Below are positions 8,224 to 13,775 of a DNA stretch of 17,973 nucleotides, piece after piece. The translations under genes were made by a program, and so were the position numbers. The notes beneath the pieces were generated by a model, which ran no database searches, had not been told where the DNA came from, and worked only from the letters and a program-made list of their open reading frames with translations. Origin of the DNA: a bacterium (GTDB lineage Bacteria > Blakebacterota > Blakebacteria > Blakebacterales > Blakebacteraceae); contig JALGWK010000018.1 in assembly GCA_025774205.1 (NCBI GenBank), forward strand, positions 1-17,973, read 5' to 3'. The first letter of the stretch is position 1. The number at the start of each line of letters is the position of its first letter.

Positions 8224-10312
<2,089 letters not shown>

Positions 10313-10317
10313 GACTC

Positions 10318-13095
10318 ATGGCATCACTGATCAGACAACGGATCGTACCGATCAACATCGAGGAGGAGATGAAGTCCTCCTACATCGACTATTCGATGTC
10401 GGTTATCGTCGCCCGGGCGCTCCCCGATGTGCGGGACGGCCTCAAACCGGTCCACCGCCGGATCCTCTACGGCATGCGCGATCTGGGATTGTTGCCCAAC
10501 CGGGGATACCGCAAGAGCGCGCGCCTGGTGGGTGATGTGCTCGGTAAGTACCACCCGCATGGCGACTCGGCTGTCTACGACTCGATGGTCCGCATGGCGC
10601 AGGTATTCTCCCTCCGCTACCCGCTGGTCGACGGACAGGGGAACTTCGGCAGCGTCGACGGCGACTCGGCCGCGGCGATGAGGTATACCGAATGCCGGAT
10701 GGCGAAGATCGCCGCAGAGATGCTGGAGGACCTGGATAAGAATACCGTCTCCTGGGCGCCCAACTTCGACGACACCCTGCAGGAGCCGGAAGTCCTGCCG
10801 ACCAAACTCCCGAACCTGCTCGTCAATGGAGCCTCCGGGATCGCGGTCGGGATGGCGACCAACATCCCGCCACACAACCTCACCGAAGTCGTGGACGGGC
10901 TGCTCCACCTGATCGAGAATCCCGACGCGCTGGTGGAAGACCTCATCGAACATATCCATGGTCCTGATTTCCCGACCGGAGGCATCATCTTCGGTCGACA
11001 GGGGATCCATGAAGCGTTCCGTACCGGCCGGGGCAAGATCACTGTACGGGGTAGAGTCCACATAGAGGACGTGAAGGACCGGGAGCGGATCATCATCACC
11101 GAGATCCCTTACCAGGTGAACAAATCCAGACTCCTCGAGAACATCGCCGCCCTGGTCCGTGACAAACGGGTGGAAGGTATCAGCGACCTGCGGGACGAGT
11201 CGGACCGGGAAGGGATGCGCATCGTCCTGGAGCTCAAGCGGGACGCCTACGCCGAAGTCATCCTCAACACCCTCTACAAGCACACTCAGCTGCAGACGAC
11301 CTTCGGGGTGATCAACCTCGCCCTGGTGGGTGGAGTGCCGAAGGAACTCAACCTGAAGGAGACCCTGCAGGAGTTCATAAAATTCCGGCATGAGGTGGTC
11401 GAGAGGAGGACGCGATTCGATCTCAAACAGGCGGAGGCCCGGGCGCACATCCTCGAGGGTCTGCGGATCTGTTCCGACAACATCGACGAGATCGTGGCGC
11501 TGATCAAGAAAGCCAAGGACCCGGCCGAAGCGAAGAAGGAACTGATAAAGCGGTTCAAGCTCAGTGACATCCAGGCTCAGGCCGTGCTCGACATGCGCCT
11601 CGCGCGCCTGACCAGCCTGGAACGGAAGAAAATCGAGGAGGAATACCGCGACCTGATCGAGATGATCGCCCACTACAAGGAGGTGCTGGCGAACAAGGGG
11701 CTCCGGATGGCGATCGTCCGGGAGGAGCTCACCGATATCCAGAAGCGGTACGGTGACGAGCGACGGACCGAGATCGTGGCGGACACGGGTGACTTCTCCA
11801 TCGAGGACCTGATTGCCGAAGAGGACATGGTCATCACCATCTCCCACCAGGGATACGCCAAGCGGATGCCGGTCTCTACCTATCGCAGGCAGGGACGCGG
11901 GGGGAAGGGTATCCGCGGAGTGGGCACCAAGGAGGAGGATTTCGTCGAGCACCTCTTCGTGGCCTCGACCCACTCCTACATCCTCTTCTTCACCGACCGC
12001 GGGAAGTGCTACTGGCTGAAGGTATATGACATCCCGCAGGGGGGCCGGATGGCGAAGGGCCGTCCGATCATCAACCTCATCCAGGTCGAGAAGGACGAGA
12101 CGGTCCAGGCGGTGGTGCCGGTCAGGAACTTCAATGAGGGCCGGAACATCATCTTCGCAACCGATCACGGGCTCGTCAAGAAGACCTCCCTCATCGATTA
12201 CAGCAATCCGCGCCGCGACGGTATCATCGCGATCGACATCGTCAAGGGTGACTCCCTCATCGACGCCCAGATCACCGATGGCACCTGCGACATCATCCTG
12301 GGAACCCGCAAAGGCATGGCGATCCGCTTCCGCGAGGATGACGTGCGCCGCATGGGCCGGAACACCCGCGGCGTGAAGGGGATCACCCTGGCGAAGAAGG
12401 ACGACGCTGTCGTCGGCATGGTCGTGGTCCGACGCGAGGGATATATCCTGGCCGTTGCCGAGAACGGATACGGCAAACGCACGAGGATCAGTGACTACAA
12501 TGCCCAGCACCGCGGCGGGAGAGGGGTCATCACTATCAAGTGTTCCGACCGCAACGGTGACGTCCTGACCCTGCAGGAAGTCGTGGACAGTGATGAACTG
12601 ATGCTGATCACCAGGAACGGCATCATCATTCGTCAGGCAGCCCGTGAGATCTCAGTGATGGGGCGGAACACTCAGGGCGTCAATCTCATGAACATGGGCG
12701 ATGGAGATTTCGTGGTTGATGTCGCGCGCGTTGCCGAGGAGGAGATCAACGGCGCGGAGGCTCCCGATCAATCAGAACTGACTGAAGAGATAACGACAGG
12801 GGCTCAGCCTGAGGAGAAACCGGCTGCTGACGAGGCTGCTGACGAGGCGGCTGCCGATGAAGCGGAGAGCCCCGCCGAAGAGGTGGCAGACGTCCCGGAG
12901 AAGACCACCGTGAAGAAGGGTGTGTCAAAGAAGGCCGGCGCGAAGAAGACAGCCGCTGCGAAGAAGGGGACGTCAAAGAAGGTAGTCGCAAAAAAGACTA
13001 CGGCCCAAAAGACCACAGCTAAAAAAACCGCAGCCGGAAAAACGGTGACGAAGAAGGCGGGGGCGGGGAAAAAGATCGGCGGTAGATCAGGGTGA
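10318..13095 (+). CDS. gyrA: DNA gyrase subunit A with acidic/H1-like C-terminal extension
   Basis: A 925-residue breakage-reunion subunit of gyrase, longer than the usual 800-880. The catalytic Tyr 123 is in [10 protein letters not shown]. The quinolone-determining loop reads GDSAVYD (82-88) with Ser 84 and Asp 88, the sensitive-type residues. The C-terminal beta-pinwheel starts near 500 and contains the GyrA box QGRGGKG at 525-531 and a box-like QHRGGRG near 731. The pinwheel ends near 805. What follows is not standard: about 55 acidic residues rich in Glu, Asp and Ala (806-861), then 64 residues (862-925) with 21 Lys as KK pairs spaced by Ala and Thr. It starts 5 nt after gyrB and overlaps rex by 4 nt. 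Confidence 0.97.
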
Positions 13096-13775
13096 CCTCC
13101 GCGGCTGAGCGTGACGGGGACACGGGCGGGCGTGAGCGGGATCAGATCAGCCTCTCCACCATCCGGCGGCTCTCGCGCTATTACCGCGTACTGGAAACGG
13201 CCGCCGAAGAAGACCTGACCCACATTTCAAGCAATCAACTGGCCGAACGGAACGGTGTCACCAGCGCCCAGGTCCGCAAGGACCTCTCATATTTCGGCAC
13301 CTTCGGCAAGCGAGGCCTGGGATATCCCGTCAGAGAGCTCCGTGACGAGATCCTGCACATCCTCGGTATGGACCACCAGTGGCCGGTGGTCCTGGTGGGG
13401 GCGGGGAACATCGGTCGGGCAATGATCGATTACGTGGAATTCCGCCGCCGGGGATTCTTTATCGTGGCCGCCTTCGATGTTGATCCCAGGAAGCTCGGGA
13501 TTTCCTATAAAGGAGTACCAGTCTTCCCGATGTTCAGACTGCCCGAAGTGATGCAGACCCATGAAGTCGAAATTGGGATCGTTGCGGTACCCGCGCTCTC
13601 CGCGCAACGGGTGTGCAATCAGCTGGCAGAGAGCGGCGTGAAGGGTATCCTCAATTTTGCGCATACCCGCCTGATCGTTCCCCCCGGGATCCGGGTGCGC
13701 ACCGTTGATATGAGTATCGAGATGGAGACCCTGGTCTACGTGGTGAACAAGAACGGCTCCTTTCCACTCGACTGA
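13092..13775 (+). CDS. rex: Redox-sensing transcriptional repressor Rex
   Basis: A 227-residue NADH-responsive repressor that senses the NADH/NAD+ ratio and controls fermentation and respiration genes. The N-terminal winged helix covers about 20-90 ([50 protein letters not shown]). A Rossmann domain follows, with GAGNIGRA at 103-110, [22 protein letters not shown], and [10 protein letters not shown] at the C-terminal side. The start is GTG at 13092, overlapping the gyrA stop (GTGA), so translation is probably coupled. The first 20 residues are a charged extension. Its placement behind gyrase is unusual. I did not find a canonical TTGTGAA-N4-TTCACAA operator nearby. Confidence 0.95.

Follow-up and report, generated by a model that had tools for sequence, protein, structure and literature searches.

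The C-terminal tail of GyrA is a known lever on supercoiling level and processivity across bacterial gyrases. The acidic tail of E. coli GyrA is described as repressing wrapping by GyrA alone (PMC7038939) and as necessary for normal supercoiling (PMC7038939, PMC11626157), and it has been proposed to time the loss of the wrap (PMC11626157). In E. coli and B. subtilis, the GyrA tails follow the pinwheel directly, are acidic and disordered, and stop with the acidic part. Our literature search found no paper on lysine-rich GyrA tails.

Basic ends of related design have been described on other proteins. The closest architecture is the C-terminal domain of Myxococcus xanthus CarD, in which a disordered acidic segment of about 140 residues is followed by a basic, DNA-binding segment with RGRP AT-hooks (PMC4374960); the domain is functionally equivalent to histone H1-like domains according to a title cited in that paper. 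Among topoisomerases, actinobacterial TopA carries H1-like lysine repeats at its C terminus, about 12 within 70 residues in Streptomyces, which confer processivity (PMC7398561); TopA is a type IA enzyme and has no long acidic spacer. Chlamydial Hc2 and Bordetella BpH1 consist of pentamers with two basic and three other residues, mainly Ala, Val, and Thr, whose gain or loss changes protein length, and the Hc2 pentamers bind DNA (PMC2848022). The KPAA tails of Pseudomonas AlgP and PhaF are long, disordered Lys-Ala repeats that bind polyanions or DNA (PMC9239181); these two proteins are granule-associated, and no acidic spacer is mentioned for them.

Here, we describe a type IIA gyrase whose A subunit extends the acidic tail by a 64-residue lysine module. 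It is encoded in the window, the whole 17,973-nucleotide stretch of DNA that was analysed. In sequence, the module resembles the lysine repeats of actinobacterial TopA, although the TopA of this lineage itself lacks such a tail, and it shares the repetitive pentamers of Hc2 and BpH1. Whereas the latter are free-standing nucleoproteins, the module is the tail of an enzyme. Its unit is KKxxx rather than KPAA and lies behind an acidic spacer; unlike CarD, it has no AT-hooks, a core of which (GRPPK) does occur in two GyrAs of other lineages. The protein is made of known parts in a new combination, with signs of several independent origins of similar combinations.

Anatomy of the window GyrA and its tail

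The gyrA gene is a single open frame from the ATG at 10318 to the stop codon at 13093-13095 (Table 1). Its product passes both NCBIfam gyrA equivalogs (PRK05560, 1252 bits with a cut-off of 902; TIGR01063, 1221 bits with a cut-off of 877) and matches Pfam PF00521 and six stretches of PF03989. The six-bladed pinwheel and the GyrA box are both intact, as judged by Pfam and sequence. In an alignment of 20 GyrAs, Gln-525, Arg-527, Gly-528, and Gly-531 of the box are invariant, as is Tyr-123, which we take to be the expected catalytic tyrosine. The GyrA box is required in gyrases for DNA wrapping. By these curated models, the protein is an ordinary, complete gyrase A subunit, predicted to support supercoiling. 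A search with this protein found just a single A subunit of type IIA per genome in the four genomes of the family, which are incomplete, so gyrase may be their sole type IIA topoisomerase. The closest named GyrAs outside the family are ~61% identical and come from MAGs of KSB1, Zixibacteria, and Neomarinimicrobia.

Table 1. Positions of gyrA, its parts and neighbors in the window, and of lysine-tailed proteins in the family genomes
Feature	Position	Strand	Description	Basis
gyrB	8354..10312	+	probable start GTG 8390	sequence reading
gyrA	10318..13095	+	complete DNA gyrase subunit A with tail, 925 aa	NCBIfam, Pfam
Tyr123 codon (AAMRYTE)	10684..10686	+	invariant	20-sequence GyrA alignment
GyrA box QGRGGKG	11890..11910	+	residues 525-531	sequence
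Acidic spacer	12733..12900	+	residues 806-861; 56 aa, 21 D/E, 1 K, net -20	
12- and 15-nt tandem repeats	12822..12865	+	code A/D/E-rich part of spacer	
Basic H1/HC2-like tail	12901..13092	+	residues 862-925; 64 aa, 21 K, 1 R, net +22	
Degenerate 15/18-nt repeats	12928..13035	+	code KKxxx pentamers	
rex	13092..13775	+	directly downstream of gyrA tail	
uL30 (rpmD)	L068 2353-2943 (G000 C361); L071 (G001 C28)		~13 N-terminal KKTAA-type pentamers	
FlpD/MvhD-type hydrogenase delta subunit	L069 3325-4281 (G000 C395); L075, L077, L079		long N-terminal Lys-rich tail	
Ribosomal protein S1	L067 1612-3129; L073 369-2558		C-terminal long acidic repeats, then K-rich end	
YtxH-like protein	source genome		C-terminal KK-pentamer tail	
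GyrB with N-terminal KKTST array	L080 2484-4550 (G003 C138)		15-nt repeat with 98% identity at lag 15	

Beyond VVDVARV, the last strand of the pinwheel, the protein continues in the same frame for 120 residues (806-925, 12733-13092), exactly the extension that the initial annotation had reported. The "about 55 acidic residues" given there hold as the length of the acidic stretch, only 21 residues of which are Asp or Glu. Our count agreed with the 21 lysines claimed for the 64-residue end, which also has a single Arg and is free of Asp and Glu. The lysines are spaced five residues apart: Lys/Arg pairs at a lag of five number 16 compared with 6.7 expected, a count that none of 2000 shuffles matched. 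When the whole protein was shuffled (2000 trials), no 64-residue window held more than 15 lysines (mean 9.9) versus 21 in the tail, and the terminal 60 residues of 301 other sampled ORFs of the source genome contain at most 6 lysines versus 20 in GyrA. The shuffles and the ORF comparison rule out chance composition as the origin of the lysine tail.

The description of this end as histone H1-like fits its five-residue lysine period and its profile matches, which are weak. Pfam HC2 (PF07382) aligns with E = 6e-7 and 30.2 bits, under its 40-bit cut-off, and the NCBIfam Hc2/H1-like profiles likewise match weakly below their cut-offs. By score, the tail thus falls outside HC2, whereas it does consist of tandem pentamers with two basic residues. 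An AT-hook core (RGRP or GRP) is absent from residues 862-925, and the layout of an acidic followed by a basic disordered segment is that of HMGA/CarD-type AT-hook tails (-20, then +22; pLDDT <50). In the structure model, residues 808-925 have pLDDT values below 50 and neither helix nor strand; as residues 1-127 are also poorly modelled from the 20-row alignment, the model supports disorder of the tail without proving it. We refer to the whole extension as predicted to be disordered.

Conservation in the family and basic ends of other GyrAs

All four genomes examined from the phylum, which represent one family and two genera and are incomplete MAGs (63-86% complete), encode both halves of the tail, in the comparison with relatives that the initial annotation had suggested. 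The acidic and basic halves carry net charges of -20/+22 and -14/+15 in the genus of the window and of -10/+21 and -7/+22 in the sister genus. In the three pairs compared, the GyrA core is 83-91% identical versus 39-53% for the tail at aligned positions, and the repeat unit shifts from five residues in the window's genus to six in the sister genus (TASKAK type, period 6). The charge of the basic half nevertheless stays between +15 and +22 in all four genomes; because it remains similar while sequence and repeat unit change, we conclude that the basic charge is kept. When substitutions were simulated in a simple model at the observed nucleotide divergence of 43%, the frame remained free of stops in 8.6% of the runs, and a net charge of at least +15 was retained in 1.1%. 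Re-expansion of the repeats could help to sustain the charge without selection, which makes its retention an argument and not a proof.

The nearly cancelling charges in one genus (-20/+22, -14/+15) recall the suggestion that the two halves pair with each other as an autoinhibitory element, or else recruit polyphosphate in a PASK-like manner, keeping gyrase off until release. Yeast Top1 carries such an acidic/lysine PASK region, which interacts with polyphosphate (PMC7008358), and the repression of wrapping by the E. coli acidic tail points in the same direction (PMC7038939). However, the charge match is lost in the sister genus (-10/+21, -7/+22), leaving a conserved exact pairing of charges unsupported, and single-chain prediction, a weak test, gave no structure in the tail. 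We consider a switch of this kind quite improbable.

The same comparison bears on the origin of the reading frame. The source genome is a MAG fragmented into 527 contigs (85.9% complete), and within the same window yidC is interrupted by an unrelated duplication of 47 bp, so an assembly or gene-calling artefact that fused gyrA with a separate Lys-rich gene might be suspected, as the initial annotation had allowed. The single frame and the identical arrangement in four separate genomes, together with rex following gyrA in both the window and G001, rule out a misassembled or separate gene and reduce the chance of such an artefact to a negligible one.

Of 97 distinct complete GyrA C-termini, 80 have a 20-residue window that is clearly acidic; a strongly basic window occurs in just six, namely those of the four family genomes, of L148, and of L293. 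The acidic half is therefore ordinary, although lengthened here, and the basic half alone is unusual; the earlier view of the whole bipartite tail as an addition stands for the basic half and not for the acidic one. The tail of L293 (G185 C73) has the end KRGRPPKKK and that of L148 (HyVt-354) has KRGRPPKIKLK, so that both share KRGRPPK with the AT-hook-like core GRPPK. This AT-hook-like tail is absent from the GyrA of G040, which belongs to the same order as L293 and is 78% identical to it over the aligned end. Two further basic GyrA tails were found, a Lys-rich one in a Bacteroidota MAG (L160) and one that is acidic and then K/P-rich (L280). At least four lineages outside the family thus appear to have acquired basic GyrA tails independently, two of them with the GRPPK core. 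We list these as separate cases and give no frequency, because the GyrA set is non-random (the batch L280-L299 was chosen for long frames). Nor does a search of 386 genomes with a C-terminal fragment provide a frequency of basic tails, since its alignments break off ahead of divergent tails: for G003 and G063, whose GyrAs do carry basic tails, they end at query positions 121 and 141.

Lysine arrays on other proteins and the possible role of the tail

We searched the family genomes for further carriers with a strict KKxxxKKxxxKK codon pattern, followed by ORF reading and Pfam; owing to this strict pattern, the inventory misses looser tails, such as those of the TASKAK type. The proteins recovered are diverse (Table 1); the source genome itself contributes uL30, the FlpD/MvhD-type subunit, S1, and the YtxH-like protein. 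The tails of uL30 and the FlpD/MvhD-type subunit pass the Pfam HC2 cut-off of 40 bits with 49.0 and 43.1 bits, respectively. The FlpD/MvhD-type subunit, for which a role with nucleic acids is unexpected, carries its Lys-rich tail in all four family genomes, whereas no uL30 turned up in G002 or G003, perhaps through genome incompleteness. In S1, the order of the tail is acidic and then basic, matching that of GyrA. The relatives add a SWIM-type protein (Pfam match below threshold) and, in G003, a GyrB with its own array. This GyrB array sits exactly at the probable start of the window GyrB, which has no repeat. Neither HU nor TopA of the lineage has a KK-pentamer tail; with uL30, FlpD-type, and YtxH proteins carrying one, we rejected the tail as a signature of topoisomerases or nucleoid proteins. 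The proposal that the tail tunes gyrase, made in the initial annotation, retains the fact that GyrA carries it; the same arrays on uL30, S1, FlpD/MvhD-type, and YtxH proteins make the view that it serves gyrase alone too narrow. Why one lineage places histone-like tails on unrelated proteins is a question that these carriers raise.

The arrays differ in age at the DNA level. Identity at third codon positions at a lag of 15 is only 0.47 in gyrA, indicating an old array, in contrast to 0.88 in rpmD and 0.94 in gyrB of G003, where the 15-nt repeats are young and near-perfect. In the GyrA protein, the lysine period is retained despite the decayed DNA repeats. These differences suggest that the tails arise when 15-nt units duplicate and are thereafter retained as protein. 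The young arrays show that slippage is active, and tail length and unit vary between the genera, as would be expected if the arrays were a tolerated by-product of 15-nt slippage that grows at gene ends into a soluble, disordered tail with little or no function. We think this explanation unlikely: the gyrA array is old in DNA but intact in protein, its charge is retained in four of four genomes, and random decay would bring stops and loss of charge, even if ongoing re-expansion could partly mimic retention.

Our preferred reading, which we hold to be moderately likely, is that of a disordered tail that anchors GyrA to DNA non-specifically from behind an acidic spacer. The basic module would plausibly bind DNA, electrostatically and without sequence preference, so that each GyrA would gain a second, flexible DNA contact outside the wrapped pinwheel. 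Between cycles, gyrase might thereby stay attached to DNA or the nucleoid, with raised processivity. The acidic spacer, in turn, would distance the basic end from the pinwheel and its wrapping surface and might temper wrapping, as in E. coli. We infer these steps from composition, conservation, and the systems compared above. From the side of the partner subunit, the KKTST array acquired by the GyrB of G003 supports a reading in terms of gyrase. The GyrA module would be one of several HC2-like tails that the lineage adds to proteins by duplication of 15-nt units.

Because the same arrays occur on proteins that do not act on DNA (FlpD-type, uL30, YtxH), the tail need not serve DNA, and RNA or polyphosphate are equally conceivable ligands of such basic tails. 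A general polycation tag, on the model of the AlgP/PhaF tails at polyphosphate and polyhydroxyalkanoate (PHA) granules, would let the KK-pentamers stick to rRNA, mRNA, DNA, and polyphosphate and bring diverse proteins into a shared compartment or condensate. It would account for the tails on uL30, S1, the FlpD-type subunit, the YtxH protein, and GyrA alike, two of which exceed the HC2 cut-off, and RNA binding has also been reported for Hc2 (PMC2848022). On the other hand, the majority of carriers are nucleic-acid enzymes or ribosomal proteins, and the AT-hook-type basic tails of GyrAs from other lineages suggest DNA as the ligand. We regard the tag as a credible but rather unlikely account.

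Beyond the DNA-anchoring reading, we tentatively raise a wider possibility, doubtful as it stands, that gyrase repeatedly evolves a further DNA-binding module at the GyrA C-terminus, disordered and of fixed design (an acidic spacer with an H1-like or AT-hook-like basic end), and so becomes tethered and anchored to the nucleoid; within this lineage, the module would be one use of a shared 15-nt-repeat system that marks ribosomal and redox proteins as well. A natural gyrase with a large module of opposite charge behind its acidic tail, together with the separate gains in other GyrAs, offers a ready-made system for swaps.

Genomic setting of gyrA

The ORFs of the window read as rsmG, yidC, dnaA, dnaN, recF, a short recF-adjacent protein, gyrB, gyrA, and rex, and with three parS-like sites the window is an origin-type region; profile searches cover gyrA only, and the other names come from reading the sequence. 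The ORF that follows the gyrA tail is presumably rex, the redox-sensing repressor, and rex is also the next gene after gyrA in G001. On the minus strand, a perfect 47-bp tandem duplication at 1947-2040 breaks yidC into two ORFs in different frames, 1027-1959 and 1941-2906. As 47 is not divisible by 3, this duplication reflects either a fault of the assembly or genuine damage to the gene.

Next to the rsmG-like ORF, at 870-979, a parS-like site (TGTTTCACGTGAAACA) occurs three times at an exact spacing of 47 bp; one of the three copies has one mismatch. No parS-like site within one mismatch was found in G002 or G003, both of which are incomplete genomes. In G001, which belongs to the same genus as the source genome, two perfect parS-like sites are likewise 47 bp apart (C184:1073 and 1120).
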